Shown one piece after another: positions 3,127-24,892 of a DNA stretch of 34,437 nt (position 1 is the stretch's first letter; the number at the start of each line of letters is the position of its first letter). The notes under the pieces are model-generated. The model was not told where the DNA came from and did no database searches. It saw only the letters and a program-made list of their open reading frames with translations. The DNA is from Candidatus Methanomethylicaceae archaeon (GTDB lineage Archaea > Thermoproteota > Methanomethylicia > Methanomethylicales > Methanomethylicaceae). Made by a program: the position numbers and the translations under genes. Location: positions 1 to 34,437 of the forward strand of contig JACTUC010000013.1 of assembly GCA_015660995.1 (NCBI GenBank). Reading direction: 5' to 3'.

Positions 3127-3172
3127 GGTTCATTTAGAAACAGAGCAGATGTAGATACTGGAAAGGATGTTT

Positions 3173-8504: not shown

Positions 8505-8945
8505 ATGAGCGTCATTGTGACTCTGGAAAAAAAACCATTAATAAAGTTCGATGTCCAGAAGTGCGCCTTCTGCAAGATCTGCGAGCTGAGCTGCTCGAAG
8601 TACCATTACGGGAGATACGCAGACTCACTGGCAAGGATAACGGTCGTGAGGAAGAGCCCGCTGATGCTAAGGTGCCACATATGCACCCGGTGTGAAAAGC
8701 GGTTCTGCATCGCTGCCTGCCCCAAGAACGCCCTCTCCTACAGGGGTGGCAACATAGTTGTCGACGAGAAGTTCTGCGACTCATGCGGAATCTGCGTCAA
8801 GGCATGCCCGTTCCATGGCATAAGACTCCATCCGGAGACGAAGATGCCTTTAATATGCGACCTCTGCGACGGGGATCCCAGCTGCATCAAGGCATGCCCC
8901 AAGAGCGCGTTGAGCCTAGTGCTGCTCCCAGAGGCAAGGAAGTGA
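8505..8945 (+). CDS. Polyferredoxin, four [4Fe-4S] sites, AOR-associated
   Basis: A 146-residue electron carrier. Seventeen cysteines fall in four groups: 20/23/26/30 (CAFCKICELSC), 57/60/63/68/72, 91/94/97/101 (CDSCGICVKAC) and 118/121/127/131. Sixteen can serve four [4Fe-4S] clusters, leaving Cys-57 spare. Each later group ends in the C-P pair typical of ferredoxin domains. The order resembles the ferredoxin-like small subunit that accompanies many AOR-type enzymes. It lies two bases ahead of the AOR gene, so the two are almost surely one operon and one electron path, with electrons from aldehyde oxidation passing from AOR to this protein. Confidence 0.93.
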   Translation: MSVIVTLEKKPLIKFDVQKCAFCKICELSCSKYHYGRYADSLARITVVRKSPLMLRCHICTRCEKRFCIAACPKNALSYRGGNIVVDEKFCDSCGICVKACPFHGIRLHPETKMPLICDLCDGDPSCIKACPKSALSLVLLPEARK

Positions 8946-8947
8946 TT

Positions 8948-10810
8948 ATGGTGAAGTACAGTGGCTATAAAGGTAGAATTTTGAGGGTAAATCTTACCAA
9001 CAAGAAAACGACAACGCTCGACTTTACCGACGAGTTCGCCAAGAAGTACCTCGGCGGGAATGGATTTGCTGCCAGGTACATCTGGGACATGGTCGATCCC
9101 AGAATGGCGGCGTATGATCCGACAAACGTTGTTGCAATGATGACAGGGCCGTTTCAGGGGATCAACATTCCAACTGCTGGCAAGTATTATATGGCCACGA
9201 AGTCTCCGCTCACGAATGGCTACTTCGATAGCGTCAGCGGTGGCTACATCGGCGCCCAGATAAAGTATGCGGGCTACGACGGCCTTCTCATAACAGGAAA
9301 GGCTGAGAAACCGACCTATATCTTCATCGAAGACTCAAAGGTCGAGTTCAAGCCTGCTGAGAAGATGTGGGGCAAGTTAACAGGGGAGACCCAGGAGATG
9401 ATTAAGGAGGAGATTGGCGATCCCAACCTGTGCGTCTCTGCGATCGGGCCAGCTGGCGAGAATCTGGTCAGATATGCCTGCGTGATAACCGAGTATCGGG
9501 CTGCTGGGAGGGGGGGAGTCGGGGCCGTTATGGGATCTAAGAACCTCAAAGCAGTGGCGGTTAGGGGCTCAGGATCGAACCAAGTGGCAGACCCAGCGAA
9601 GTTCGAGGAGTGGCTGGACTGGTACAGTGTAGAGGCAAAGAAGATTCCGTCGCTAGTAGCAGGCCTGCCTATCTACGGTACACCAGTTCTGGTTGCGAGC
9701 ATAAACAACATGTTTGGCGCCATGGGCACAAGGAACCACCAGACAGAAGTCTTTGAGGGGTGGGAGGGCATCTCAGGCGAGACCTTGAAGAGGGTCTACT
9801 GGAGCAAGGACACTGCTTGCCCGGCTTGCCCAATAGCGTGCAGCAAGGTCTTTACCGTCAAGGATGGCAAGTGGAAGGGCGCTATCTCTGAAGGCCCAGA
9901 GTATGAGACCATCTATGCCTTCGGATCGATGTGCGGAATCAGCGACTCTGGTGCGTTGATAAAAACGGACAGCCTCTGTGACGAGTGGGGGATTGACACG
10001 ATTACATACGGTGTGACGCTCTCGTTCCTAATGGAATGCTACCAGAAAGGCCTTATCAATAAGGATAACACGGATGGGGCAGAATTCAAGTTCGGAAATG
10101 ACGATGTGTTAGTGGGGTTCGTCGAGAAGACAGCGAAGAGGCAGGGGATAGGGAATCTCATGGCTGAGGGGTCACTCCGTGCATCGAAGGTGATAGGCAG
10201 CGACTCAGAGCGTTTCGCAATCCAAGTCAAGGGGTTGGAGATACCAGGTCACTCCGCTCGAGCGCTCAGGGGGATGGCTCTGGGCTACGCGACCGCCACG
10301 AGGGGCGGCAGCCATCATGACCCGAGGCCGACGGGCGAGTATGCCGGCGTCTCCGACAGGAAAGCGGTAGAAGGCAAGGCTGCTTGGGTGATTGGAACCC
10401 AGCAGATGACGACAATAGGTGACAGCCTTGTCCAATGCCACTTCCTGGAGAGGCTGCTCGGGTTCACCCTTACGCAGAAGTTCGTTGATATGATCAATCC
10501 AGTTACAGGATTCGGCTACAACTTGCAGGAATTGGTCGACGTGGCGGAAAGGATTCTGGACCTTGAGAGATCCTTCAACGTGATGGCAGGTATAAGGAGG
10601 AAGAACGACACCCTCCCGAAGAGGTTCCTAGAGGAACCCATACCCGACGGACCGTCGAAGGGAATGAACACCGACGAGGCGACGCTGAGCAGGATGTTGG
10701 ACGAGTTCTATGGCATAAAGGGCTGGGACAAGACGACAGGCATCCCTACTAAGGATAAACTTGTAAAGATGGGCCTAGAGGATGTTGCTTTGGCTCTGGA
10801 AAAGCTGTGA
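8948..10810 (+). CDS. aor: Aldehyde:ferredoxin oxidoreductase (tungsten-type AOR family)
   Basis: Oxidises an aldehyde to the carboxylic acid with ferredoxin as acceptor, using a bis-pyranopterin W (or Mo) cofactor and one [4Fe-4S] cluster. The protein is 620 residues, close to Pyrococcus AOR (605). Evidence: the N-terminal GYKGRILRVNLTNKK and YLGGNGFAARY, the pterin-binding GRGGVGAVMGSKNLKA (residues 188-202), the cluster motif CPACPIAC with Cys-291, 294 and 298, and the distant fourth ligand Cys-497 in DSLVQCHF. The open frame runs upstream to 8783 through the ferredoxin gene, but the ATG at 8948 gives the family N terminus and follows a GGAAG. The exact substrate (formaldehyde, acetaldehyde or other) cannot be read from sequence. 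The moeA pair nearby would supply its metal cofactor. Confidence 0.97.
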   Translation: MVKYSGYKGRILRVNLTNKKTTTLDFTDEFAKKYLGGNGFAARYIWDMVDPRMAAYDPTNVVAMMTGPFQGINIPTAGKYYMATKSPLTNGYFDSVSGGYIGAQIKYAGYDGLLITGKAEKPTYIFIEDSKVEFKPAEKMWGKLTGETQEMIKEEIGDPNLCVSAIGPAGENLVRYACVITEYRAAGRGGVGAVMGSKNLKAVAVRGSGSNQVADPAKFEEWLDWYSVEAKKIPSLVAGLPIYGTPVLVASINNMFGAMGTRNHQTEVFEGWEGISGETLKRVYWSKDTACPACPIACSKVFTVKDGKWKGAISEGPEYETIYAFGSMCGISDSGALIKTDSLCDEWGIDTITYGVTLSFLMECYQKGLINKDNTDGAEFKFGNDDVLVGFVEKTAKRQGIGNLMAEGSLRASKVIGSDSERFAIQVKGLEIPGHSARALRGMALGYATATRGGSHHDPRPTGEYAGVSDRKAVEGKAAWVIGTQQMTTIGDSLVQCHFLERLLGFTLTQKFVDMINPVTGFGYNLQELVDVAERILDLERSFNVMAGIRRKNDTLPKRFLEEPIPDGPSKGMNTDEATLSRMLDEFYGIKGWDKTTGIPTKDKLVKMGLEDVALALEKL

Positions 10811-10847: not shown

Positions 10848-11243
10848 TCAGTGCGCGGATGGCTTGACCTTCTGCAAGAGTTTCTTAACAGCATCCACTA
10901 GATTGTCAAGGTCCTGAGATCGCATGGGCTTGCTCAAGAACATGTCGGCGCCTGCCTCTATGCTCATCCTAAAGTCTGCCTCCCGTCCAAGCACCGTGAA
11001 TATCACAACAGGTATGGCTTTCGTCTTCTGCTGGGATTTTAGGATCTTGCAGATCTCGAATCCGCTCTTACCGGGCATTACAACATCCATCAAAATCAGG
11101 TTGGGGGCTTCGGAATCGGCTTTTTGGAGCGCTTCCTCGCCGCTTGAGGCAAGAATAACCGTAAAGCCTGCGTTCTCGAGGTGCATCTTTGTTAGGTTCC
11201 TGACGTCGGTCTCGTCGTCAACCACTAGTATTTTTTCGGACAG
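10848..11243 (-). CDS. Response regulator receiver protein (CheY-like)
   Basis: A single phosphoacceptor domain without output domain. The acidic pair is in VVDDE, the phosphorylated aspartate in LILMDVVMPGKSG, the switch residue in VIFTVLG and the lysine in FLSKPM. The first usual start, GTG at 11225, would begin at VDDE and cut away most of the first beta strand. Reading upstream gives SEKILVVDDE, the classic family N terminus, preceded by CTG at 11243, with GGAGGA seven bases before it. I therefore place the start at CTG 11243, giving 131 residues. The gene overlaps the 3' end of the histidine kinase gene by 26 bases in another frame. The kinase is its natural partner. A one-base frameshift that would fuse both into a hybrid kinase is the alternative reading. 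Confidence 0.88.
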   Translation of the reverse strand: MSEKILVVDDETDVRNLTKMHLENAGFTVILASSGEEALQKADSEAPNLILMDVVMPGKSGFEICKILKSQQKTKAIPVVIFTVLGREADFRMSIEAGADMFLSKPMRSQDLDNLVDAVKKLLQKVKPSAH

Positions 11244-14200
11244 ATCCTGATCCTCCTGTTGTCACTACTTCTTTGGGCAGGACGAAGATAAGTCTTGCAC
11301 CCATTCCCTCGCCGGCAGACTCTGCCCATATCTTTCCGCCATGTGCCTCTACCAATCCCCTTGTAACGCTAAGCCCCAGACCAGTTCCACGCACATAGCT
11401 AGTCTTTTTGATCGCGGTAAAGGGTTCGAAAACCCTCTCTAGATCCTCGCTTTTTATGCCTATTCCTGTGTCTGAGACGATGATGCGCACCGTCGCCCCG
11501 TCATCGTAAGTCTCGATGGATATTTTCCCGTGTTCTGGCGTGAATTTGGATGCGTTGCTGAGAAGGTTCGTGAGGACCTGCGTGAGCTTAATCCTGTCGC
11601 CTTCTATGATCAATGGGGCTTCCTTACCAAGGAGCTCGAAAATCTGTTGCTTTTCGATCAGAAACGGCTCAAGCTCATTTCTGCAACACTTGATTATCTC
11701 TCTCACGTCTATTTTCTCGAGTTCTAGTTGGATCTTACCCGCCTCGATTCGCTTTACATCAAGTATATCGTTAGTGAGGCTGATCAGCCTATCTGTGTTC
11801 CTTTTTACTATCCCGAGGTTCTCCCCAATCTTCTCAGGTACCTCTCCCATCTTCCCGCTGAGGATGTAGTCGAGGTAGCCCATCATCGCCACGAGAGGAG
11901 TCCGCAACTCATGCGTGATGTTCGAGATGAACTGTTCCCGCATCTCCATAACTCTCTTCAGTTCCGCCTCTGCCATCTTCCTCTGGGTTATGTCCTTGAT
12001 TATTAGCACCACTGATCCCAGTTTGGAGGAAGATTCCTGAATAAGGCCAGACGAGATCGAGACGGGGATTTCATCCCTGTATTTTGTGAGTACGCTGAAC
12101 TCTAGGTCCTTCATGAGACCAGACACATATGTGTTGGTCATGGAACCTACTGCAAGCGGCTTGTCCCTTGTGATGATAAAATCTAGATAGTTCCTGCCAA
12201 GCAGATTCTCTTTACCCTCAAGCTTCAGCAAGTCAAGAGCTGCCTGATTACACTCGGTTATTGTTCCATCGTCCTCCACTACCATCATTGCGTCTGGTGA
12301 TGCTTCTATTATCCTGCGGAAACGTTCCTCGCTGACCTGCAGCTTTGCCGCCCTATCATCCACCAGGTCTGCCAGATGCTCGGAAAAGAGCTTGAGAGCA
12401 TCCTCCATTCTTTTCCTCTCTGTGATGTCAGTAAGGGTGCCTTCGTAGTAGAGGATTTTTCCACCATGGTCCTTGACTATGTGGGCGTTCTCGAGGACGT
12501 GTATCTGCTTCCCGTCTTTTCGCTTTAGTACAAGGTCCGAGGTCCGTATCTCGCCATCCTGATTCAGCTTTTCGATGGCAGACCTCCTTTCTCCAGGATT
12601 GGCATAGAGATCGTCTGCAATGTTGGCATTAAGCAGCTCTTCCTTTGAGCCATAGCCCAGAATGTCCACGAGTGCTTGGTTTACTGTGATCAGTTTCCCC
12701 TGCGCGGTGCTCTGGTAGATTCCATCTGGGATATTCTCGTAAAGGCTCCTGTACTTCTCCTCGGAAGCGAGTAGCGCATCCTCTATTCGCTTCCTCTCTG
12801 TGATGTCCCTAATTGACTCGATGGCGCCCACGACGTTCCCGTCGTCGTCGAAGAGCTGTGAAGCGGTTGCCCATAGGCACCTCTCGGCGCCGCGCAGCCT
12901 GACAAGCGTCTCAGTGTAAAAGGTATTCCCTTCCTTTTGGATTGCTTTATACATTTTTTCGATCCCTTGGTCGGGATGCATTACCAGATCTATTAAGCCA
13001 GGCCTCCTCAATCCATAGAAAGGTAAGGAATATTCGTAGTTGCCCTTGCCTATCATTGCTTCCTTTCGGACTCCGGTCATCTCTTCGATGGCTTTGTTCC
13101 AGGCTATTACCACACCTTCCTTGTCCATCACCATTGTGGCATCGGGCAGGAAGTCGATAATATCCTGCAGCTGCTGGTGAGCTAATCTAAGTCTCTCCTC
13201 GTCCCTCATCCTGTCGCTAATGTCCGTTCCTACGGATAGCATCGCAATGACTTCCCCATCTTTGTTCCTCAGGGGTTTGTTGGTCCAGTGGATCCATACC
13301 CGCTCCCCGCTCTTCTTTACGTTCTCATTGACATTGGTGGAGTACTTCTCATCCGAGATGATGAGTTGAACCAGATTGCTGATGTCCCGCCCACTGGACT
13401 CTGTTTTCGGGATTATGGTTTCGTGTAAATTCTTCCCTACGACTTCTTCCCGCGAAAATCCAAAGAACCTCTCTGCGAATTCGTTGAACGATAGGACATT
13501 ACCCTTCAAGTCCCACTTGAATATGATGCTGTTTGCGCTTTCAACAAGCTCGCGGTACTTCTCCTCGCTCTCTCGCAGCGCCTCCTCCATCTTCCTGCGA
13601 CTGGTGATGGGTATGACGATCTCCAGTGCAAATATGACATCCCCTTTGCTGTTCTTGATCGGAGTTGTTATGATCTGCGACCATACTTTCTCACCCTTCG
13701 CGTCTATGCTTGCCTGCTCAAGAGTGTGCATAGACTTCCCCCGGAAAACCTTCGCTATGCCACAATCGCTGCAGGCGTCGTCCAGTTGGTGCATGGCAGA
13801 ATAACAGCACTTACCCTCTATGTTGCCGAAAAGATCCTTCAGCACACTGTTTGCCCAGACAACCTTCCTGTCCCTGAGAATGATGGCTACGCCCACTCCC
13901 ATATTTTTTGTGATTAGCTCTAACTTCTCATTCTCATTCCGGAGATCCTCCTCCATCTTTTTCCTTTCAGTAATGTCCGCGATTATGAGAAGGATCCCTG
14001 AAAACTGCCCTTGCTCATCAGTGAGCGGAGAGGCATTAACTATGGCTTGCATCCTAGTGCCATCCTTCCTTATGAACTCCAGATCATGCTGCCCTCTGAG
14101 CCCCTGCTTCTGCCGATCAACGTAACCCCTAGCAGCCTTTTTATCATCCTTATCGAAAAGATCGAAGATGGACTTGCCCATCATTTCCCCTATTGGGTAA

Positions 14201-16119
14201 CCAAGCATCTCAGCCAAGCGTTGGTTGACGAAAGTAATGTTGTATCCAGTGTCACAGACTCCTATCCCGTCATAAGCGAGTTCCACCAACTGTTGGTACT
14301 TTGCCTTGCTCCGGGTCAGCTCCCCCTCTATCCTCTTCCTCTCGGTGATGTCGCGGAAGATAACTTGTAAGGCAGGTTTGCTCTTGTAGGTGAAGGGAAG
14401 CGCGGTCACTTCAATATAGATTGTCTTGCCATCCATTCTGGTCATTTCCCTCTCTAGAATGGGCTGCGAGACCTTGGTCAGCGTCCTCGCGCTCTCTTCA
14501 AGCAGTGCTATATAGTCAGGGTGCAGAAAGGCGGGTATCTCCTTCCCCAACAGCTCGACGGGTTTCTTCCCACCAAGGATCTTGGCGCCTGCTGGATTGA
14601 TGTATGCGACCTTGCCTTCCTGCTGTATGACAACGCCATCTGTTGAGGATTCTACGAGCTGGCGGTACTTATCCTCAGACTCTTGAAGAGCGCTCTCCAT
14701 CCTCAGCCGTCTTAGGGCGAGGGCGTAAAGCTCACCCATTCTGATTATGGCTTCAAGATCCCTCTCAGTATAGTCCCTGTGGGAGTTTGCCAGTGCAATC
14801 TGGCCTACAAGTTCTTCCCCCATCATTACAGGGACTGAGAGGAACCGCTTCAATGCTATATGGCCTTGGGGCGTTCCCCTGGACGAGATGTGGGAGGAGG
14901 GAGAGTTGGTATAAAATGGGATGCGGGTGTTCAGGGCATACCCCCAAAGCGTGTCGTAGAGACCATCTGGTCCCCTATGGAAGCGTGGCAAGGAGCCTTC
15001 TTCGCTTGTCTGGCACATGCCCTTCTCCATCATCTCCGTCTGGGCGTGCCCGACGTTATCGCCAGTCTCTGGGTCGATTATGGTGACATAGCCATGTTCG
15101 CTACCGGTTATGAACTTGGCTTGAGCCAGAATGCTGGAAGTCATGATGCTGATGTTTGAGGAGCTCGAGAGCAACGGTTTTAATAACTTGGCTAGGGAGG
15201 TGTTGACAGCCAGCTCCCAGATCAGGGAGTCCTGGGCTTTCTTGCGCCTTGTGATGTCCTCGACCAGACACAAGCACCGATCATACTTCCCAGCCTTGTT
15301 CTTCAGCGCAGAGGAGTTGATATTGACATCTATGATGGTGCCGTCCTTGTGGACCATCCTGTACTCCTCATTATTGAGGGAGCCCTTGTTCATTATTTCC
15401 TTGAGCGATTTTTGGGCCTTTTCGATGTAATCCTGGTGGAATATCTTGGCCATCGATTGGCCTATTATCTCCTCGGGAGAGTAGCCCAAGAATTCCCGAA
15501 CACGGCTATTGGAGTCGACTATCAAACCTTCTCTGCTGATAGAAACTATGAAGTTCGCTGCGGTCTCGAAGATCGTGCGGTACTTCTCCTCGGAGCTCTT
15601 AAGGGCATCCCACATCTTGTTACGCTCGCTTATGTCAGTAAGCGAGACGAGTGTCCTGCAGAGATCGAGCTCACAACCTGGAACAACATTCCACTTGAGG
15701 AGGGTATAGATCATCTCGCCGTCAAGCCGCATGTTGATGCCTTCGGCTTCGAAGGATGTCTTGCCCTCGGAGATGGCGATTATTTCTTCCATCAATCTAA
15801 GGTAGCTCTCCTTCACGTACCATTGAGAGATCCCCCTCTGGGCTTTCTCCTTGTTCGAGGCTCCCAGCAACTTGATAGCAGCATTGTTAACGTCCAATAT
15901 CTTCACGAGGTCGGCGCATTTCAGCAGCTCTTCGGGGTGCTTTGCAAAAAACGCGCGGAGGTTTTTCACTCCAGAAGACATCTTTTCGTTGAGGTACTTC
16001 TTTACACCCGAAAAGTCCTCCTCGAGGAGTGCTACTGGGGAGTTCTCGAAGATAGCGCGGTACCTAGCTTCATTATCGAACATCGCCTCTTCTTTTTTGC
16101 GCGGCACTTCTTCGGTCAT
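11218..16119 (-). CDS. Giant soluble multi-PAS/GAF sensor histidine kinase
   Basis: A 1633-residue kinase without membrane segments, so it senses cytosolic cues. I read PAS 1 at about 15-165, PAS 2 at 175-290, GAF at 300-472, then PAS 3 (478-592), 4 (600-717), 5 (725-838), 6 (848-968), 7 (976-1108), 8 (1114-1232) and 9 (1258-1380); most end in a DITERK-type PAC tail. HisKA follows with His-1403 in ITHELRTPL, then the ATPase with NLLSNASKF (N box), DTGIGI and GTGLGL. PAS 5 holds Cys-771, 772, 783 and 786. It diverges from the corrinoid methyltransferase operon 238 bases away and ends in the receiver gene. In Methanosarcina, PAS/GAF kinases such as MsmS are linked to methylsulfide methyltransferase genes, so control of the adjacent operon is a fair but unproven inference. 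Confidence 0.96.
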   Translation of the reverse strand: MTEEVPRKKEEAMFDNEARYRAIFENSPVALLEEDFSGVKKYLNEKMSSGVKNLRAFFAKHPEELLKCADLVKILDVNNAAIKLLGASNKEKAQRGISQWYVKESYLRLMEEIIAISEGKTSFEAEGINMRLDGEMIYTLLKWNVVPGCELDLCRTLVSLTDISERNKMWDALKSSEEKYRTIFETAANFIVSISREGLIVDSNSRVREFLGYSPEEIIGQSMAKIFHQDYIEKAQKSLKEIMNKGSLNNEEYRMVHKDGTIIDVNINSSALKNKAGKYDRCLCLVEDITRRKKAQDSLIWELAVNTSLAKLLKPLLSSSSNISIMTSSILAQAKFITGSEHGYVTIIDPETGDNVGHAQTEMMEKGMCQTSEEGSLPRFHRGPDGLYDTLWGYALNTRIPFYTNSPSSHISSRGTPQGHIALKRFLSVPVMMGEELVGQIALANSHRDYTERDLEAIIRMGELYALALRRLRMESALQESEDKYRQLVESSTDGVVIQQEGKVAYINPAGAKILGGKKPVELLGKEIPAFLHPDYIALLEESARTLTKVSQPILEREMTRMDGKTIYIEVTALPFTYKSKPALQVIFRDITERKRIEGELTRSKAKYQQLVELAYDGIGVCDTGYNITFVNQRLAEMLGYPIGEMMGKSIFDLFDKDDKKAARGYVDRQKQGLRGQHDLEFIRKDGTRMQAIVNASPLTDEQGQFSGILLIIADITERKKMEEDLRNENEKLELITKNMGVGVAIILRDRKVVWANSVLKDLFGNIEGKCCYSAMHQLDDACSDCGIAKVFRGKSMHTLEQASIDAKGEKVWSQIITTPIKNSKGDVIFALEIVIPITSRRKMEEALRESEEKYRELVESANSIIFKWDLKGNVLSFNEFAERFFGFSREEVVGKNLHETIIPKTESSGRDISNLVQLIISDEKYSTNVNENVKKSGERVWIHWTNKPLRNKDGEVIAMLSVGTDISDRMRDEERLRLAHQQLQDIIDFLPDATMVMDKEGVVIAWNKAIEEMTGVRKEAMIGKGNYEYSLPFYGLRRPGLIDLVMHPDQGIEKMYKAIQKEGNTFYTETLVRLRGAERCLWATASQLFDDDGNVVGAIESIRDITERKRIEDALLASEEKYRSLYENIPDGIYQSTAQGKLITVNQALVDILGYGSKEELLNANIADDLYANPGERRSAIEKLNQDGEIRTSDLVLKRKDGKQIHVLENAHIVKDHGGKILYYEGTLTDITERKRMEDALKLFSEHLADLVDDRAAKLQVSEERFRRIIEASPDAMMVVEDDGTITECNQAALDLLKLEGKENLLGRNYLDFIITRDKPLAVGSMTNTYVSGLMKDLEFSVLTKYRDEIPVSISSGLIQESSSKLGSVVLIIKDITQRKMAEAELKRVMEMREQFISNITHELRTPLVAMMGYLDYILSGKMGEVPEKIGENLGIVKRNTDRLISLTNDILDVKRIEAGKIQLELEKIDVREIIKCCRNELEPFLIEKQQIFELLGKEAPLIIEGDRIKLTQVLTNLLSNASKFTPEHGKISIETYDDGATVRIIVSDTGIGIKSEDLERVFEPFTAIKKTSYVRGTGLGLSVTRGLVEAHGGKIWAESAGEGMGARLIFVLPKEVVTTGGSGSVRKNTSG

Positions 16120-16357: not shown

Positions 16358-17020
16358 TTGAGCCAAGAGCAAATGCTTGATGATCTTGCGAATTCTGTTA
16401 TCAGTGGAGATGCTAATAGGGCAGCAGAAGCTGCAAAGAATGCTCTTACAGGAGGGGTTGATCCGTTGAATGCCATCACAAACGGCTTGAATAGGGGGAT
16501 GAAGCAGGTGGGGGAGGACTTCAGCAAGCTGAAGGTTTATCTGCCCGAGGTCATGATGGCAGCAGAGGCGATGAAGGCTGCTCTCGCCATACTCGAGCCC
16601 GCCGCACTGAAGAAGGACAGCACTAGCATCAAGAAGAGCAAGGTTGTCATAGCCACCATTGCGGGTGATATCCACGATATCGGGAAGAACATTGTGTCAC
16701 TCCTCATGAGAGCAAACGGCTTCGAAATTTACGATCTCGGAAGAGACGTGCCAATAGACGCTATGATCAGCAAGGCAATGGATGTGAACGCGGAGATTAT
16801 TGCAGCATCGACCCTGCTCTCAACCTCAATGCCGTACATGGAGGACATGATCGCTCTGCTCAAGGAGAGGGGCCTGCGCGGAAAGTTCATAATAATGGTC
16901 GGCGGTGGACCCGTAACCAAGGAGTGGGCAACCTCGATAGGGGCCGACGGCTACGGCGACGACGGTGACGAGGCGGTCAAGGTAGCCTATGAGCTGCTCC
17001 AAAGGGTGAAGCCAAATTGA
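16358..17020 (+). CDS. Methyltransferase cognate corrinoid protein (MtmC/MtbC type)
   Basis: A 220-residue cobalamin protein that carries the methyl group between two methyltransferases. Residues 5-85 are the helical cap (B12-binding-2) and 92-215 the Rossmann-like B12 domain. The cobalt ligand is His-106 in GDIHDIGKN, and the SxxLS-like (STLLSTS, 151-157) and VGGGPV (181-186) segments that hold the nucleotide tail are present. The length is typical of MtmC, MtbC and MttC. The start is TTG at 16358, eight or nine bases after GAGGGA; an ATG at 16373 would trim five residues. The stop overlaps the TTG start of the first MtmB-like gene (TTGA), so the pair is coupled and this is the natural methyl acceptor of both downstream enzymes. 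Confidence 0.96.
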   Translation: MSQEQMLDDLANSVISGDANRAAEAAKNALTGGVDPLNAITNGLNRGMKQVGEDFSKLKVYLPEVMMAAEAMKAALAILEPAALKKDSTSIKKSKVVIATIAGDIHDIGKNIVSLLMRANGFEIYDLGRDVPIDAMISKAMDVNAEIIAASTLLSTSMPYMEDMIALLKERGLRGKFIIMVGGGPVTKEWATSIGADGYGDDGDEAVKVAYELLQRVKPN

Positions 17021-18384
17021 ACTCCATATGGGAGGTAATAGACAAGGCAGAGACCGGCCAGTATATGGAAGAGAGAGACTTCGACCTGAACGTCGTGGCC
17101 AAGCTCTGCAGGGACCTCGTTAAGGAGTACGGGATCAAGTTTGACCCGGCTCAGATAATCACTTCTGACGACTCTATGGTTGACAACGTCTTCGAGGCCG
17201 GCCTCAGGCTTGCCTTGGAGGCGGGGATATTCTGCATTGACACCAAGAGGATAATACGGTTCGACGAGCGCGACCTCAGGGAGGGAACCTCGTCCGCTCC
17301 CACAAGCCTGATAATAGGGCAGGGGAAAGACTCGAGGATCCTTTACGCCAGGGGCGTCGAGGACGAGAGAGACCCGATCATATGCGGGGGGCAGGCGGGC
17401 GCCGCTATACCCGAGGAGTGGTACCTCCCCATGGCGCTGTCTTTCATGAAGGAGCCGCTCGTTGACATGATCAACAATGGAGGGCTGGCTGTCGTGGAGG
17501 GGAGGAAGGTCAAGACCAACACACCACTAGAGATACAGGCCACGCGGAGGGAGCTCAGGATGCTTAGGGAGGCGGCCGACAGAGCGGGCAGGCCTGGCAT
17601 TCACCTGCTCGCGGGCGAGAGCAGCGTCTCAGCGCTCGGTGACTTAGCGATAGCCTCGGACAAGTACATGAGGACGAGTGATGCCCACTTGGTGGCGCTG
17701 CTGAACGAGCTAAAGACGGACAACCAGCGGATCTCTAAGGTAGTCAATTTCACGGAGTACGGGGCGCACAACGTCACCCTTGTTGACCCGATAATTGGAG
17801 GGTATGCCGGGGGACCTGAGGGAGTCGCTGTCTGCTTCATCGCGTCATTCCTGCTGGGGAGGGTGATGTATGGCTCGGAGTACCATGTGATACATCCCAT
17901 ACACTTTAGGTACATGAGTACGAGCGCGGTGGAGTGCATGTGGAACCTGAACATAGTTGGCCAAGCGATGTCGAGGAACGCTCCCTACATCCTGATGGGG
18001 GATGTCTGGACTTCAGCTGGCGCCGGGAGCGAGATGGTCTTCTATGAGATAGCGGCCAATACCATAACAAACGTCGTGACAGGGTCCCATCCTCTAGGCT
18101 GCTCTGCCACCAACGGAAAGTACCCCCACGCGAGCGGGTTGGAGACGCGATTCATGGCCGAGGTCGCGCTTGAGACAGCACGCTCAGGCCTGAAGAGGGA
18201 GAATGCAAACGAGATGGTTGTGAAGCTGGCGAGCCTTTACAAGGACAGGCAGGCGAAGCCGGACATAGGCAAGCCTTTCCCTGAGCTCTACGATATGGCA
18301 AGGGTGGTGCCAAAGCCCGAATGGAATGCAACCTATCTGAAGATGAAGAGAGAGATTGCAGAGATGACTGGCCTGGATCTTTGA
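17017..18384 (+). CDS. MtmB-family methyltransferase without pyrrolysine, paralog 1
   Basis: A 455-residue homolog of monomethylamine:corrinoid methyltransferase, nearly the length of M. barkeri MtmB. Collinear family segments include FDLNVVAKL, DDSMVDNVFEAG, IFCIDTKRII, AGRPGIHLL, LLNELK, GGYAGGPEG and FPELYD. There is no in-frame UAG: the pyrrolysine site after GRPG is Leu-198. Against MtmB as I recall it, Glu-229, Glu-259 and Gln-333 correspond to Leu-225, Leu-255 and Asp-329, with no gap needed between them. The enzyme therefore probably demethylates something other than monomethylamine, or by another mechanism. His-196 in GRPGIHL is near the missing residue and is kept in the sister gene. 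The start is TTG at 17017 overlapping the previous stop, with AAGGGTGAAG upstream; no in-frame ATG gives the family N terminus. Confidence 0.93.
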   Translation: MNSIWEVIDKAETGQYMEERDFDLNVVAKLCRDLVKEYGIKFDPAQIITSDDSMVDNVFEAGLRLALEAGIFCIDTKRIIRFDERDLREGTSSAPTSLIIGQGKDSRILYARGVEDERDPIICGGQAGAAIPEEWYLPMALSFMKEPLVDMINNGGLAVVEGRKVKTNTPLEIQATRRELRMLREAADRAGRPGIHLLAGESSVSALGDLAIASDKYMRTSDAHLVALLNELKTDNQRISKVVNFTEYGAHNVTLVDPIIGGYAGGPEGVAVCFIASFLLGRVMYGSEYHVIHPIHFRYMSTSAVECMWNLNIVGQAMSRNAPYILMGDVWTSAGAGSEMVFYEIAANTITNVVTGSHPLGCSATNGKYPHASGLETRFMAEVALETARSGLKRENANEMVVKLASLYKDRQAKPDIGKPFPELYDMARVVPKPEWNATYLKMKREIAEMTGLDL

Positions 18385-19769
18385 TGGTGACGAGAATGCA
18401 GAGCTACCGGATGGACGATATGACAAAGAGGGCCCTCGAAGGTCCCTACATGGAGGAGGCAGACTTCGACCTCAAGCTGATCAAGAGGACGAAGGAGATT
18501 GTCAAGGAGCATGGCATTAGGTTCGATCCCCAGGTGATCATTCCTACGGATGACACGATGGTGGACGAGGTCTTCAACGCGGGGAGGCAGCTGCTACTGG
18601 AGTTGGGATTCTACTGCCAGACCACCAAACGTATAATCAAGCTCGAGGAGTGGGAGATAAACCAGGTGATCCGGTCCCTGCCCACTGCTTGGACATTGGG
18701 GGAGGGCAAGGACTCCGTTGTCATGCATATGCGGCGGGTCGAGGATCCCACGCCGCCGGTGATCCATGCTGGCCCTACCGGGACGCTTACGACCGAGGGC
18801 GATGTCTATGTGAAGACCCTCAGGAGCTATGCCCAAGAACCATCTATCGATTCTGTTGGGGCCGGAACCTTGGCCACCATAGATGGCTTCAGGATAAGGA
18901 AGGGCACTCCCCAAGAGTACAGGGCAGCCAAAACCCTGGCTGGCTGGGCCCGGGATGCCATAACCCAGGCAGGTCGACCAGGAATGCACATCAACGACGT
19001 GGCCGTGGTCAGCCCAGAGGCAAAGATCTGTGCCCTTAGCCCCGAGCATGGTCTGAGGCCTACCGACGGGATGCTGGTCGCCCAAATGATAGAACTGAAG
19101 ACGAGCCTTGCCCACCTTTCCCTCATAGAGCACATGTTGAGCTATGGCTGCTTCGTGGGCAACCTTATGACACCCATCCTCGGTGGCTATTCGGGGGGAC
19201 CCGAGGGTACAGCCATTTGCACCGTTGCTGAGCACCTGGCTGGAGCGGTATGTTACAATGCAAGTTATCACTACCTCAGCCTGACCAACGTAAGAAACCT
19301 TAATGGCACAGACAGACTTGGCCTCTGGACCATAAGCATTGTGGGGCAGTCGCTAGCTAGGAACTCTAACCTCATGAGCATCTACGACTGCTACTGCGCA
19401 GCAGGTCCTGGAGAGGAGATGCTGCTGAGGGAGGCTGCTGCTGGTGGCGTCACCGCCTCAGTAAGCGGAATGAATCTCATGGGTTGTGGCTCTTGCGGGG
19501 GCAAGCTCCAAGACCACCTCACCGGTGTTGAGGCAAGGATGCTCAAGGAAGCAGGCGTGGCCGCAGCGGGTATGAACCGCGAAGAGGCCAATGGATTCCT
19601 GAGGCAGTGGCTCCCACTCTATGAGGGGATGGTGGACATATCCAAGTCACCCAAGGGAAAAACCTTCCAAGAGCTCTACAGTCTGAGCGCAGCTAAGCCA
19701 AATAAGGAGTGGGAGGATAAGTACCGGAAGGTCATCGGAGAAATGGCAGCGCTGGGCATCGAGATTTAG
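18384..19769 (+). CDS. MtmB-family methyltransferase without pyrrolysine, paralog 2
   Basis: A 461-residue sister of the preceding protein with the same family segments (FDLKLIKRTKEIV, DDTMVDEVFNAG, FYCQTTKRII, AGRPGMHIN, MIELK, GGYSGGPEG, TFQELYS). The pyrrolysine position is Asn-204 and there is no in-frame UAG. The other MtmB active-site positions are Leu-231, Leu-261 and Asp-335, the same Leu/Leu/Asp set as in paralog 1, while the residue at the pyrrolysine site differs. His-202 matches His-196 of paralog 1. The ATG at 18384 overlaps the previous stop (TGATG); the ATG at 18396 has a better ribosome site (GGTGA five bases before) and would shorten it by four residues. The two may form a mixed oligomer or handle two substrates with one corrinoid protein. 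Confidence 0.93.
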   Translation: MVTRMQSYRMDDMTKRALEGPYMEEADFDLKLIKRTKEIVKEHGIRFDPQVIIPTDDTMVDEVFNAGRQLLLELGFYCQTTKRIIKLEEWEINQVIRSLPTAWTLGEGKDSVVMHMRRVEDPTPPVIHAGPTGTLTTEGDVYVKTLRSYAQEPSIDSVGAGTLATIDGFRIRKGTPQEYRAAKTLAGWARDAITQAGRPGMHINDVAVVSPEAKICALSPEHGLRPTDGMLVAQMIELKTSLAHLSLIEHMLSYGCFVGNLMTPILGGYSGGPEGTAICTVAEHLAGAVCYNASYHYLSLTNVRNLNGTDRLGLWTISIVGQSLARNSNLMSIYDCYCAAGPGEEMLLREAAAGGVTASVSGMNLMGCGSCGGKLQDHLTGVEARMLKEAGVAAAGMNREEANGFLRQWLPLYEGMVDISKSPKGKTFQELYSLSAAKPNKEWEDKYRKVIGEMAALGIEI

Positions 19770-19936: not shown

Positions 19937-19980
19937 GATCCATCCATAGGACTTTTCATATACAGATGTGTGGATGGATC
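19937..19980. terminator. Inverted repeat at the end of the ABC importer operon
   Basis: GATCCATCCA (19937-19946) and TGGATGGATC (19971-19980) are perfect ten-base arms, extendable by a wobble and an A-T pair, with a 24-base spacer. The right arm reaches the last permease stop codon (19979-19981). No long T-run follows directly, though the next 80 bases on the minus strand are AT-rich. Confidence 0.45.
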
Positions 19981-20917
19981 ACTCTTTGGCGTAGGGGGCT
20001 CCTAGAGCCGATGGCCCTTTAGACATCCTTCCCCCAACCACTAGTGCCACAAGCGTTGTGACATAAGGTAAGATTGTCAGAAGCTGAGCCAACGAAGAAG
20101 CCTGCGGGCCTGTCAGGAAGGCTGTGCCCCAAAATGAGAGTGCCTCGGTTGACCCGAATATCAGGGAGCCGATAAGCGCACCAGCCGGGTTCCACCTCCC
20201 CAGTATTACTATCGAGACAGCTATAAAGCCCAGCCCCGTTGTCAGCCTCGTGTCGAAGGTGTTGAACTGCGAAAGGGTGACGAACGCGCCAGCCAGACCC
20301 ACGAGGGCGCCCTCCAGCACGAGCGAGGTGTACCTGATGCGCGAAACGTTGATCCCGACGTAGGAGGCTATCCTCGGGTCCTCCCCGACCGATCTCAGCC
20401 TGAGCCCGAAGGTCGTCCTGTAAATCAGGTAGAAAACAATAGGGACAAGCACTATCGCAAGGTAGAAAAAGCCAGGCTGGTTGAACACGATAGGGCCAAC
20501 GACAGGTATCTGGCTCAAAAGCGGGACTGCGAACGGTTGGAAAAGGAAGTTCAGGTGCGGATAGCCGCCGCCAGGGAAGGCAACCCTGAGGAAGTACAGC
20601 GCGACACCGCTCGCGAGGAGGTTTATGGCGAGCCCGCTCACCACCTGGTCCAGGTTGAACCTGACCACCAGCACGCCAAACAGCAATACCGATGCTATGC
20701 CGCCGATCATCGCCGTCAAAAGCCCGACCCACAGTACGCCGGTGAAGTAGGCGCCAAGGAAGCCGGAGAAGGCGCCGATCAGCATTGCGCCCTCGATGCC
20801 CAGGTTGAGGATGCCGCCCCTCTCCACGACCGTCTCGCCCAGCGATGCCAGGAGGAGCGGGCAGGCGAAGGTGACGCAGGAGGCCGCAAATGCTATCGCT
20901 ATCGTGAGTCCGGTCAT
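19979..20917 (-). CDS. ABC importer permease, BMP/nucleoside type (second permease)
   Basis: Integral membrane protein of 312 residues in the BPD_transp_2 (RbsC/YufQ-like) family, with about eight or nine hydrophobic helices. The GEDPRIASYVGINV segment is the cytoplasmic coupling loop that contacts the ATPase; the N-terminal LASLGETVVERGGILNLGIEGAMLIGA is characteristic of the nucleoside-type permeases. Its ATG overlaps the stop of the first permease by four bases (ATGA), so both are made together as a heterodimer. It is the last gene of the importer operon and converges on the methyltransferase operon. An overlapping 323-residue frame is GC-driven shadow. Confidence 0.93.
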   Translation of the reverse strand: MTGLTIAIAFAASCVTFACPLLLASLGETVVERGGILNLGIEGAMLIGAFSGFLGAYFTGVLWVGLLTAMIGGIASVLLFGVLVVRFNLDQVVSGLAINLLASGVALYFLRVAFPGGGYPHLNFLFQPFAVPLLSQIPVVGPIVFNQPGFFYLAIVLVPIVFYLIYRTTFGLRLRSVGEDPRIASYVGINVSRIRYTSLVLEGALVGLAGAFVTLSQFNTFDTRLTTGLGFIAVSIVILGRWNPAGALIGSLIFGSTEALSFWGTAFLTGPQASSLAQLLTILPYVTTLVALVVGGRMSKGPSALGAPYAKE

Positions 20918-22098
20918 CGCTTGAATACCCCCTTCCTCTCAAGGAATCGCATGATGTACTCGGAGCCGAGGACGAAAATGATGAGGACACCCTGGATGAA
21001 GGAGACTATACCGGAGGGCTGCCCGAGCTGGATTGAAACGTTCACCGAGCCGTTGTAGATGCCCGCGAGGAAAAACGATGAAAGAAGAATGCCGATGGGG
21101 TTGTTCCCACCCAGCAAGGCAACAGCGATGCCTGTGTAGCCGTACCCTGGCGATAGCGAGGTCATGACGCTGAACTGGATGCCCTCAACCTCGAAAAGAC
21201 CGGCGAGTCCCGCGAGCGCGCCACTTATAATAAGTGCAAGGAATATGGTTTTTTTCACGTTAATCCCGCCGTACTTTGCTGCCTCAGGGTTCTCGCCCAC
21301 TACCCTCAGCTTATAGCCGAAGGTCGTCTTCGCCATCAGGAAATATACGAGCGGGAGCGCAGCGAGCAGCGCTATCGCAATGCCCAGGTGGAAACGGGTG
21401 TGCGGGATGAGGATAGGCAGCATGGCTGATGCGGGGATTGTCGCGGACTGCGGGAAGTCGGCTGTGGTGCTGCGGAATGGATATGAAACGAACCAGGTGA
21501 CGAGATCGATTGCCACGAAGTTCATCAGGAAGGTTGTTATGACCTCATTGATGCCGAGCTGGGTTTTCATCAGTGCAGGGATTGCTGCCCAGCCCATGCC
21601 GCCAAGGATTGCTAAAACGATTGATGCCGGGAGCGCCAGAGGGGAGTTGCCAAGGAAAATAGCGGTCTCTGCCCCCAGGAAGGCACCTATGTAGAGCTGT
21701 CCCTCAGCCCCGATGTTCCACACCTTGCACTTGAAGGCGATGCCCAGACCCAGAGATACGAACAGGATGGGGGACATCCGCACCAAGGTCTCGATGAGGA
21801 AGCTGGTGTTGCCAAACGCCCCGTAGAACATGTAGTAGTAGGCGACGAGCGGGTTGGCGCCGGTTATTATGAACAGGACAGAGGTGACCACCAAGGCGAG
21901 GAGGATCGAGATTGCTGCCTTGTATATGGAGCGGAGCCTCGACCTCGAGAGGATGCCACGGGACAGAGGCTGAGCGGCATCAGGAGCTGTAGCTGAAGAC
22001 GGGGTAGGAGCTGGAGCTAGAGCTGGAGAAGCTGAAGTCTGAGTCTGCGCTTGAGTTTCCTGCCCCATACCACAATAGCCCCTAACACATTCATTCAT
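20914..22098 (-). CDS. ABC importer permease, BMP/nucleoside type (first permease)
   Basis: Integral membrane protein of up to 394 residues, YufP-like. The first 50 residues or so are a hydrophilic Ala/Pro/Thr/Gln-rich tail, followed by a helix (AAISILLALVVTSVLFII) and seven or more further membrane segments. GENPEAAKYGGINV is the coupling loop and matches the one in the sister permease; WNIGAEGQLYIGA is the family segment before it. The ATG at 22098 is used here; the ATG at 22065 (MGQETQAQ) is also possible because AGGGG lies about ten bases before it. The gene follows the ATPase gene after 20 bases. The low-complexity tail is unusual for the family and its role is unknown. Confidence 0.92.
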   Translation of the reverse strand: MNECVRGYCGMGQETQAQTQTSASPALAPAPTPSSATAPDAAQPLSRGILSRSRLRSIYKAAISILLALVVTSVLFIITGANPLVAYYYMFYGAFGNTSFLIETLVRMSPILFVSLGLGIAFKCKVWNIGAEGQLYIGAFLGAETAIFLGNSPLALPASIVLAILGGMGWAAIPALMKTQLGINEVITTFLMNFVAIDLVTWFVSYPFRSTTADFPQSATIPASAMLPILIPHTRFHLGIAIALLAALPLVYFLMAKTTFGYKLRVVGENPEAAKYGGINVKKTIFLALIISGALAGLAGLFEVEGIQFSVMTSLSPGYGYTGIAVALLGGNNPIGILLSSFFLAGIYNGSVNVSIQLGQPSGIVSFIQGVLIIFVLGSEYIMRFLERKGVFKR

Positions 22099-22118: not shown

Positions 22119-23744
22119 CTAGGTCGTAGAGCCGAGCATCATCTTCGCGAGCCTCTGCATGTCGAGGCTTCCCGAGAGGAACTCCCCGACTATCCTCCCG
22201 TCGTACATCACTGCTATCCTGTCGCTGAGCTTCACGATCTCGTCCAAATCAGCAGAGAATAGGAGGACCGCGACCCCCTTAGCCCGCAACTCGAGCAGCT
22301 TCGTGTGGATCGCCTCAGATGCCTTCACGTCGAGCCCGGCTGTTGGCTGCTCTGCGATTATCAATATCGAACCGTTCGAAAGCTCCCGCGCAACCATGAG
22401 CTTTTGTATATTGCCCCCAGAGAGGCTGCTCACGTTGGCGCAAGGGTCGGACGCCTTAATGTCGAACCTCTTGATCAGGTCCTGCGCCCTGCTTTCAACC
22501 TTCCTCTGGTTCACGATCATGTTCTTGCTGTAGGGCTCCTGCTCAATACATTTGAGCGCTAGGTTGTCGGATATGCTCAGGTTGAGGATGACGCCCCTTT
22601 TCATCTTGTCCTCGGTGATGTAGGAGACGCCCTTCTTGATTATGAACTGCGGCGGGCGATTGGCCAGGTTGCAGCACTTCATGATGGAGGTGCCGGACTC
22701 GGTCTTGCGCAGGCCTGTCAAAGCCTCGACTAGCTCCTTCTGCCCGTTCCCGGCAACGCCTGCGATGCCCAGTATCTCGCCAGACCTGACAAGGAAGTCT
22801 ACCCCCTTCACAGCGAGCCTGCCGGAGTTCCCCTTGACGTTAAGCCCCTTTACGATGAGCGCTAGCTCGCCCGGCTGACCCTTTGTGCCGTTGGTTGAAG
22901 GTACGAAGCCCTCCACCACGAGCGACGCAAGCTCCCTCTCGTTCGTGTTGCTGGCGTTCAGCGTTCGGACTACCTTGCCTAGCCTCATTATCGTGATCCT
23001 GTCGCTGACCGCAAGCGCCTCCTTTACCTTATGGGTAATAATGATAACGGACTTCCCCTTTTCCTTCAGACCACGGACTATGCGGAAGAGCTCGTCCACC
23101 TCTAAAGGTGTCAAGACGGAGGTTGGCTCGTCGAGGACCAGGATATTAACGTCCTGGCATAAAAGTCGGATAATCTCTACCCTTTGTCTGAGACCGACGG
23201 GGAGCTGCTCAATCTTAGTGTCGGGATCGATCTCCAGGCCAAGGTTCTTCGACACCGCGATGATTTTTTCCCTGATTATGTCCAGCTTGAGGCGACCGGG
23301 GAGGGGGATGCTCAGGGCTACGTTTTCGGTAACCGTGAATGACGGGATAAGCGATAAGTGCTGGTGGACCATGCCTATGCCAAGCTTCACCGCCTTCATT
23401 GCATCGTCGATATGAACCTTTTTCCCGTCCACAAAAATTGAGCCGGTGTCAGGCGAAAGGCACCCCGAAAGAATCTTCATTAACGTGGTTTTGCCGGCTC
23501 CGTTCTCGCCCAGAAGCGCATGGACCTCGCCCTTGAGCACGCCGAAGGTCACGTTGTTGTTGGCGACCAGGCCGTTCGAATATGTTTTGGTGATACCCTC
23601 GACATAAATGGCATAATTCGGATTTGCCATAGAAACAGAAACTTGAGTTTTGTCTTCCTTTACAGTATCCTCTACAGCCATGGAATCACCAATAGGCTGA
23701 TTCTTCGCGGTGGATTCAACCAAAAAAAAGTTAAAGAGGGGCAT
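22119..23744 (-). CDS. ABC importer ATPase with two nucleotide-binding domains (BMP/nucleoside type)
   Basis: A 541-residue double ATPase like YufO/NupA and RbsA. Domain 1: Walker A GENGAGKTT at 79-87, signature PVGLRQRVEI and Walker B LVLDEPTSVLT. Domain 2 has a degenerate Walker A (GVAGNGQKEL, no lysine), as is normal for this family, a canonical LSGGNIQK signature and IIAEQPTAGLD. The protein powers uptake through the two downstream permeases. The ATG at 23744 has GAGGTGG five bases before it and lies nine bases after the stop of the binding-protein gene. This gives a 40-residue N-terminal extension before the first domain (NYAIYVEGITKTY); an internal ATG at 23681 also has a GGTGA and could be used. 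Confidence 0.95.
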   Translation of the reverse strand: MPLFNFFLVESTAKNQPIGDSMAVEDTVKEDKTQVSVSMANPNYAIYVEGITKTYSNGLVANNNVTFGVLKGEVHALLGENGAGKTTLMKILSGCLSPDTGSIFVDGKKVHIDDAMKAVKLGIGMVHQHLSLIPSFTVTENVALSIPLPGRLKLDIIREKIIAVSKNLGLEIDPDTKIEQLPVGLRQRVEIIRLLCQDVNILVLDEPTSVLTPLEVDELFRIVRGLKEKGKSVIIITHKVKEALAVSDRITIMRLGKVVRTLNASNTNERELASLVVEGFVPSTNGTKGQPGELALIVKGLNVKGNSGRLAVKGVDFLVRSGEILGIAGVAGNGQKELVEALTGLRKTESGTSIMKCCNLANRPPQFIIKKGVSYITEDKMKRGVILNLSISDNLALKCIEQEPYSKNMIVNQRKVESRAQDLIKRFDIKASDPCANVSSLSGGNIQKLMVARELSNGSILIIAEQPTAGLDVKASEAIHTKLLELRAKGVAVLLFSADLDEIVKLSDRIAVMYDGRIVGEFLSGSLDMQRLAKMMLGSTT

Positions 23745-23753
23745 TTAGCCACC

Positions 23754-24860
23754 TCATGGAACTGGTGTTGCGAAGTCAGGAACCCAGAGCGGTGTTGTGG
23801 CGCCGCTAGCTATGGTGCCGTTGATCTCCATTATGCCAGTTATCACCGTGCTGTTCTGCAGACCGCCCCGTATGTTTCCCCACATGACAGTGCCTGCGTC
23901 TATTTGAGCTACAAGGTTCTGCGCTGCTGCATAGGCTGCCGGGTAGTGTGTGATGAAGTACGGGTTCCAAGCGAAGTAGGTGTCATTGTTTGCCATCCTG
24001 CAGTAGTAGTCGCCTGCAGGGAAGTTGCCGCTCTCTGCGCCCTGTATCATTGCCTTGAGCATTGGGTAGTTGTTCCACACGACGCTGCCGACAACAGTGG
24101 TGTTTGCCTCGGCATTTTGGTTGACATAGTCGCCGAATGCCACAGCTTTCTGCACCCCATTAACATTGCATGCCTGGAAAGTACCCTCACGCTCACCGTA
24201 GATGACGTCGACGCCTGATGCTATCATTGACTGCGCCACGGTCTGTGCTGCTGCAGGGTCATACCAGCTGTTAATGTAAGCGACGGTTATGTTGCACGAC
24301 GGGTTCTCCGCCCTAGCGCCAGCTATGAAGCCGTTAATGAGATCATCGACATCGCCCGCGCTTTGGTATGCTGCTACAACGCCGAGCTTGCTAGTGTTTG
24401 AGACCATTGCGCCGACATAGCCCGCAACGTAGGATGACTCCTGCAGGTACGAATCGAAGAGCAGGAGGTTGCCCTTGGAGAAGTCTGTGCTCAGGCCAGA
24501 GCCCTCGCCGAAGTAGATGGCAGGATACACCCTTGAGAGATTGTCAGTGGAGCTCCAGAAGCCCCAGCTGTCGGGGATCACGAGGTTGTAGCCATTGTTG
24601 ATGTAGTTGAGGGCAACGCCGGGCTCATCGGATGTCCCAACGTTTTCAACATATGTGAAGTTGATGCCGAGCTGGTCTTGAGCCTGGACCAGTGCCTGGT
24701 ACATTATGTTGTTCCACGGTTCCTCGAGAGGGGTGGTGAATATTGCCGCGACCTTGAACTGCTTTTGCGCTGGCTGCTGGGTACTAACATAATAGTAGGC
24801 ACCGGCTGCCACTACTACAACGAGAACGATCACTATTGCTGAGATATACGATGTTTTCAT
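23754..24860 (-). CDS. BMP-family substrate-binding protein of the ABC importer
   Basis: An extracellular binding protein of 368 residues in the basic membrane protein (BMP/PnrA/Med) family. A hydrophobic N-terminal helix (ISAIVIVLVVVVAAGAYYY) without a lipobox cysteine suggests it is tethered to the membrane by this helix. The mature part opens with FKVAAIFTTPLEEPWNN, has the GVALNYINNGYNLVI and SYVAGYVGAMVSNTSKLGVV segments and the family-like VDVIYGEREGTFQA loop. Characterised BMP proteins bind purine nucleosides, but the substrate here is open. Several Asn-X-Ser/Thr sites would suit archaeal N-glycosylation. The ATG at 24860 has GGGG four bases before it and is preferred to the ATG at 24878. 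Confidence 0.93.
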   Translation of the reverse strand: MKTSYISAIVIVLVVVVAAGAYYYVSTQQPAQKQFKVAAIFTTPLEEPWNNIMYQALVQAQDQLGINFTYVENVGTSDEPGVALNYINNGYNLVIPDSWGFWSSTDNLSRVYPAIYFGEGSGLSTDFSKGNLLLFDSYLQESSYVAGYVGAMVSNTSKLGVVAAYQSAGDVDDLINGFIAGARAENPSCNITVAYINSWYDPAAAQTVAQSMIASGVDVIYGEREGTFQACNVNGVQKAVAFGDYVNQNAEANTTVVGSVVWNNYPMLKAMIQGAESGNFPAGDYYCRMANNDTYFAWNPYFITHYPAAYAAAQNLVAQIDAGTVMWGNIRGGLQNSTVITGIMEINGTIASGATTPLWVPDFATPVP

Positions 24861-24892
24861 AATACCCCACAAAGTCAAGAGTGGGTTAATTG

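Follow-up and report, generated by a model that had tools for sequence, protein, structure and literature searches.

A conserved pair of MtmB-family methyltransferases without pyrrolysine in a Methanomethylicaceae archaeon, with a tentative link to N-methylated purines

What do two methyltransferases of the MtmB family act on when neither contains pyrrolysine (Pyl)? This question is raised by an operon in a stretch of 34,437 nucleotides, called the window below, from a Candidatus Methanomethylicaceae archaeon (assembly GCA_015660995.1, contig JACTUC010000013.1), in which a corrinoid protein gene is followed by two MtmB-family genes, here named P1 and P2. The lineage is Ca. Methanomethylicia (Verstraetearchaeota), with named relatives Ca. 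Methanomethylicia / Methanosuratincola. It is near certain that P1 and P2 are a Pyl-free pair of corrinoid methyltransferases, and what is new here is that the pair has a conserved linkage to a BMP-type ABC importer, which recurs in Chloroflexota beside purine enzymes. Pyl-free homologues of MtmB are numerous, and a single function, that of MtqB, is reported for them in the part of the literature available; the conserved transporter of two such clades, with the purine-degrading enzymes beside their bacterial members, points to a definite substrate class that can be tested.

The Pyl-free pair and its active site

The operon genes and the codons equivalent to the Pyl-site residues of M. barkeri MtmB are located as follows.

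16358..17020, plus strand: corrinoid protein gene of the MtmC/MtbC type, opening the operon (PF02310 + PF02607)
17017..18384, plus strand: P1, MtmB-family methyltransferase without pyrrolysine, 455 aa (PF05369, E 8e-108)
17608..17610, plus strand: P1 Leu198 codon, Pyl202 equivalent (MtmB alignment)
17689..17691, plus strand: P1 Leu225 codon, Glu229 equivalent (MtmB alignment)
17779..17781, plus strand: P1 Leu255 codon, Glu259 equivalent (MtmB alignment)
18001..18003, plus strand: P1 Asp329 codon, Gln333 equivalent (MtmB alignment)
18384..19769, plus strand: P2, MtmB-family methyltransferase without pyrrolysine, 461 aa (PF05369, E 3e-97)
18993..18995, plus strand: P2 Asn204 codon, Pyl202 equivalent (1NTH alignment)
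19074..19076, plus strand: P2 Leu231 codon, Glu229 equivalent (MtmB alignment)
19164..19166, plus strand: P2 Leu261 codon, Glu259 equivalent (MtmB alignment)
19386..19388, plus strand: P2 Asp335 codon, Gln333 equivalent (MtmB alignment)

Both proteins match the MtmB family at full length, with PF05369 scores of 361.5 bits (P1) and 326.9 bits (P2) against a curated cut-off of 25, and phmmer aligns about 445 residues of each with M. barkeri MtmB (1NTH/1L2Q; E 1e-67 for P1 and 5e-66 for P2). The corrinoid gene overlaps P1 by 4 bases, and the start of P2 was taken as the ATG at 18384, within a TGATG overlap with P1, the alternative start being at 18396. The only in-frame stop in P1 and in P2 is the terminal one, and neither gene has an in-frame UAG; together with the family matches, this check of the open reading frames confirms what the original prediction had read from the letters, namely two full-length genes without a Pyl codon. 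TAG terminates 8/28 genes of the window. Like MtmB, the pair has a neighboring corrinoid protein, which scores 209.5 bits against TIGR02370, slightly below the cut-off of 215.3, and carries the cobalt-ligand motif DIHDIG (DxHxxG) at residue 104, as a cognate corrinoid protein does. P1 and P2 also share with MtmB its length and TIM-barrel fold. Modeling on the MtmB structure had been proposed as a check, and it succeeded for P2, whose AlphaFold2 model (predicted local distance difference test score, pLDDT, 88) reaches a template modeling (TM) score of 0.93 on 1NTH, while the P1 model was weak (pLDDT 67) and was left out of the structural comparison.

The pair differs from MtmB in the active site. 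In the PDB sequence of M. barkeri MtmB, position 202 is Pyl (X), 229 is Glu, 259 is Glu and 333 is Gln, just as the original prediction gave them; the equivalents are L198, L225, L255 and D329 in P1 and N204, L231, L261 and D335 in P2, with H196 and H202 standing two residues before the Pyl site, and these numbers also proved exact, given the P2 start at 18384. A search of the window genome found no PylS over the cut-off. Four marks of a Pyl-dependent MtmB are absent: UAG/Pyl at 202, Glu229/Glu259/Gln333, PylS in the genome and a place in the Pyl-MtmB clade.

The predicted Leu/Leu/Asp set with a shared His holds in part across the clades (MtmB numbering). Leu259 is invariant in the P1 and P2 clades, and so is Asp333, the sole exceptions being two P2-type copies from Chloroflexota that have Ala. 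At position 229, archaeal P1 proteins have Leu, P1 proteins of Chloroflexota have Phe, and P2 proteins have Leu or Ile; position 202 is Leu, Ile or Val in P1 and Asn, rarely Gly or Glu, in P2. His200 is invariant in P2, where it opens the motif HIND, and the P1 clade has His, Ser, Gly or Pro there; since it is fixed only in P2, the His is not a feature common to the clades and was rejected as a signature for P1. Gln333 and Glu229 are kept in every TAG-containing MtmB found, as is Glu259, except in one copy that has a second TAG codon there.

The gene order corrinoid-P1-P2 occurs in ~18/23 genomes of the order, a count that takes in the window genome and two genomes whose copy is cut by a contig end. 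Both paralogs are under strong purifying selection, with a ratio of nonsynonymous to synonymous substitution (dN/dS) of ~0.05-0.12, where dS is high or saturated, and with ~18 independent assemblies the residue pattern lies far beyond chance. In a tree made without the MtqB sequence, P1, P2 and Pyl-MtmB each form one side of a branch, with SH-aLRT supports of 99, 99 and 100, respectively; a topology that unites P1 and P2 passes the approximately unbiased test (p-AU 0.47), and Chloroflexota members are present in both the P1 and the P2 clade. It follows from these separate clades that P1 and P2 are not decayed copies of Pyl-MtmB. A reading of the genes as decayed or misassembled copies is refuted and retains practically no probability: the tree that the prediction had named as its check places both outside Pyl-MtmB, conservation in ~18 assemblies excludes an assembly error that removed a UAG, the dN/dS values argue the same way, and nothing was found in favor of decay. 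The claim that the genes are functional, ancient Pyl-free paralogs with an altered active site is supported by their own clades and by purifying selection. A P1-P2 fusion in one genome (G009, 961-aa frame) was rejected as an artefact of an N run.

Among the genomes of the order, PylS over the cut-off and a TAG-containing MtmB occur in two bins only, G004 and G007. The contigs concerned (G004:C34, locus L034; G007:C78, locus L051; G007:C81) belong to one Methanomethylicia genus, and their PylS and TAG-containing MtmB may have come by transfer or contamination.

The linked importer and its relatives in Chloroflexota

The importer genes lie downstream of P2 on the opposite strand.

19979..20917, minus strand: BMP-type ABC importer permease 1 (PF02653; linkage kept in relatives)
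20914..22098, minus strand: BMP-type ABC importer permease 2 (PF02653; linkage kept in relatives)
22119..23744, minus strand: BMP-type ABC importer ATPase (PF00005)
23754..24878, minus strand: BMP/PnrA-like substrate-binding protein, sole copy in the genome (PF02608, E 1.9e-31)

In almost every Methanomethylicia locus with sufficient flanking sequence, the importer comes after the operon, and in an Aegir archaeon (L067) it lies near the pair at another position. Genomes of the order have at most one BMP gene each, and two of them, G004 and G005, have neither the pair nor a BMP gene. In Chloroflexota, P2-type operons show the order MtmB-corrinoid-BMP-ATPase-permeases in L187, L188 and L197, with a similar order in L193 and the same order up to the contig end in L190, while the P1-type operons L069-L071 contain the importer, xanthine dehydrogenase (XDH), adenosine deaminase, the corrinoid protein and MtmB. 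An adenine deaminase and XDH subunits adjoin a P1-sister gene in L202, and the P2-type copies of L072 adjoin XDH, a 5'-deoxyadenosine-deaminase-like enzyme and a methyltetrahydrofolate:corrinoid methyltransferase. In this phylum the importer lies within 10 kb of ~7/12 P1/P2-clade loci and of 0/10 other Pyl-free MtmB loci (Fisher p 0.005, with the near-identical L187 and L188 counted once), a p-value that is indicative only, as the maps had been seen before the groups were drawn, the loci are not independent and some contigs are short.

The closest solved structures to the BMP protein are AtzT (6pi5, the best match) and a Brucella BMP protein. It has been reported that AtzT binds guanine with an affinity of 110 nM and adenine with 2.5 uM, and that its Tyr45 and Trp194 stack the guanine (PMC6834077). 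In the linked BMP proteins, position 45 is still aromatic, position 220 is acidic, and Trp194 and Ser97 are conserved, except that one second copy in L069 has Ala for Ser97; the window protein has the Trp45/Ser97/Trp194 equivalents, and in the archaeal BMP protein Trp stands at the positions matching 45, 98 and 194. The stacking aromatics of AtzT are thus kept, whereas several hydrogen-bonding residues differ, and the pocket appears compatible with a flat heterocycle, as far as an alignment between remote homologues can suggest. The top NCBIfam match of the importer ATPase is ABC_ATP_B6, at 456.8 bits under a cut-off of 670; vitamin B6 was rejected as the ligand, since the B6-transporter models that match fall far under their cut-offs.

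Candidate substrates of the pair

From these gene contexts, the pair may consist of N-methylated purine-like heterocycle:corrinoid methyltransferases feeding methyl-reducing methanogenesis, a reading to which slightly less than an even chance is given. The N-methylated substrate brought in by the BMP-type importer would most likely be a purine with a methyl group, as base or nucleoside, or a flat N-heterocycle of similar kind; it would occupy the place in the TIM barrel where MtmB has Pyl and the Glu/Glu/Gln ligands, against a wall that would be more hydrophobic and hold the conserved Asp. The methyl group would sit on a cationic or protonated ring nitrogen, so that no pyrrolysine adduct would be needed; without Pyl, chemistry favors an N-methyl group that carries a positive charge or is activated in some other way. 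The cob(I)alamin of the corrinoid protein would then attack the methyl, an MtaA/MtbA-type enzyme would hand it to coenzyme M (CoM), Mcr would reduce methyl-CoM to methane with electrons derived from H2, and a RACo/RamA-type activase would repair the corrinoid. Both the methyl-acceptor enzyme and the reductive activase are represented in the genome, by two MtaA/MtbA-type genes over the TIGR01463 cut-off and three RACo-type genes (PF14574), respectively. What the substrate is, how catalysis proceeds, what each paralog does and how the route ends are our inferences, as is the presence of Mcr, which is taken from the lineage. A broader proposal, and a more doubtful one, is that a new Pyl-free MtmB branch removes methyl groups from purines or nucleosides, such as those released in RNA turnover, to give methane in archaea and C1 units in Chloroflexota. 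Nucleosides had been named in passing in the original prediction and are now the best-supported substrate lead; if it is correct, methylated purines would join the known substrates of methanogenesis. A literature search on corrinoid methyltransferases and methylated purines found nothing relevant.

Several observations weigh against a purine substrate. Next to the archaeal operon no purine enzyme was found, and the proposal therefore rests on bacterial relatives of ~41-47% identity. Adenosine deaminase (PF00962) is absent from 23/23 Methanomethylicia genomes searched, so an adenosine-deaminase step was rejected for the archaea, where the demethylated purine would instead be salvaged or released. 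In addition, G001 has a BMP gene without the pair, and in L073, where P2 stands at a contig end, the importer was not found on the 8.5-kb contig. The aromatic pocket could also take a quaternary amine, and BMP proteins can carry other ligands. Finally, Methanosuratincola petrocarbonis LWZ-6 grows on monomethylamine (PMC12244365).

It is this growth that makes monomethylamine a serious rival, in which the pair would do the work of MtmB by a Pyl-independent route, perhaps on methylamine freed from N6-methylated purines by bacterial deaminases; some adenine- and adenosine-type deaminases accept N6-methyl purines. LWZ-6 reduces methanol and monomethylamine with H2 and does not reduce dimethylamine, trimethylamine, betaine or methanethiol (PMC12244365), and both a metagenome-assembled genome labeled M. 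petrocarbonis (L066, on the same contig as that of G009) and its genus contain no MtmB genes beyond this pair and no PylS over the cut-off. The original prediction was thus too quick in setting monomethylamine aside, even as its view that the pair probably acts on another substrate is supported. For Verstraetearchaeota, methylamine use had been judged unlikely for want of Pyl genes and mtbA (PMC6783470). MtqB is reported to be weakly active on monomethylamine without Pyl (PMC13044021). Nevertheless, every Pyl-coordinating residue is lost in P1 and P2 and no methylamine activation is obvious, the linked importer belongs to a type for larger ligands, and some other enzyme may use monomethylamine in LWZ-6; this reading is considered unlikely. 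If monomethylamine is the substrate, Pyl-free methylamine activation would overturn a basic assumption, and either outcome informs what Methanomethylicia live on, with LWZ-6 available as an isolate.

Choline- or quaternary-amine-type methyltransferases, with an importer that carries a quaternary amine, are judged rather improbable. Quaternary amines are substrates of Pyl-free MttB enzymes, and the archaeal BMP Trp residues at the 45/98/194 equivalents could build a cation-pi cage. The Pyl-free MttB superfamily (MtgB and others) shows that the methyl group of N-methyl compounds can pass to a corrinoid in the absence of Pyl, but it is another protein family with a weak structural match (TM ~0.5). 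A case among MtmB homologues is MtqB, characterized in 2026 from the methanogen Methanococcoides methylutens Q3c: it lacks Pyl, is paired with a corrinoid protein of its own, demethylates choline and tetramethylammonium and has a Met/Cys active site as its type signature; in contrast to the pair, it is a single gene with no linkage to purine enzymes or BMP in the part of the report available (PMC13044021). Its characterization makes the statement that no Pyl-free MtmB enzyme had been characterized out of date. However, the purine deaminases and XDH beside the relatives do not fit a quaternary amine, betaine is not used by LWZ-6, for which a choline result is not given (PMC12244365), and a tree without MtqB establishes no closeness to it.

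It is also conceivable, though quite improbable, that only one paralog catalyzes the transfer and its partner has a structural or regulatory role, in a hetero-oligomer on one corrinoid protein, an arrangement that fits any substrate. A single corrinoid gene serves two methyltransferases in conserved order, and residues ~31-70 of P1 and P2 (window 17107-17226 and 18489-18608) are 72-77% alike within a genome against 60-67% between genomes, as if one interface constrained both; this likeness is hardly seen elsewhere along the genes (permutation p 0.0005, from permutations that do not model the tree). Partial gene conversion would be the simplest reading of this segment, and mtmB is known to evolve in concert in Methanosarcinales (PMC6053082). 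Meanwhile, each paralog keeps its own conserved pocket residues, and Chloroflexota have P1- or P2-type genes that stand alone, both of which speak against a hetero-oligomer.

Neighboring genes and a further MtmB group

Divergent to the operon lies a sensor histidine kinase of 1633 residues with many PAS domains and one GAF domain (window 11218-16119); further upstream is an aldehyde ferredoxin oxidoreductase gene (window 8783-10810), which is kept beside the operon in several relatives. A GCV_T gene, resembling the glycine-cleavage T-protein, is found at window 3167-4276 in this genome of a methanogen lineage. On one Chloroflexota contig, a Rieske oxygenase with a VanA_C domain stands directly 3' of a P1-type gene (L070:11500-12480). 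A further Pyl-free MtmB group with His229/Phe259 occurs in gut Bacillota and Chloroflexota (L078, L087, L089, L113, L193, L197 and L199), and in L193 and L197 its gene adjoins a P2-type gene.

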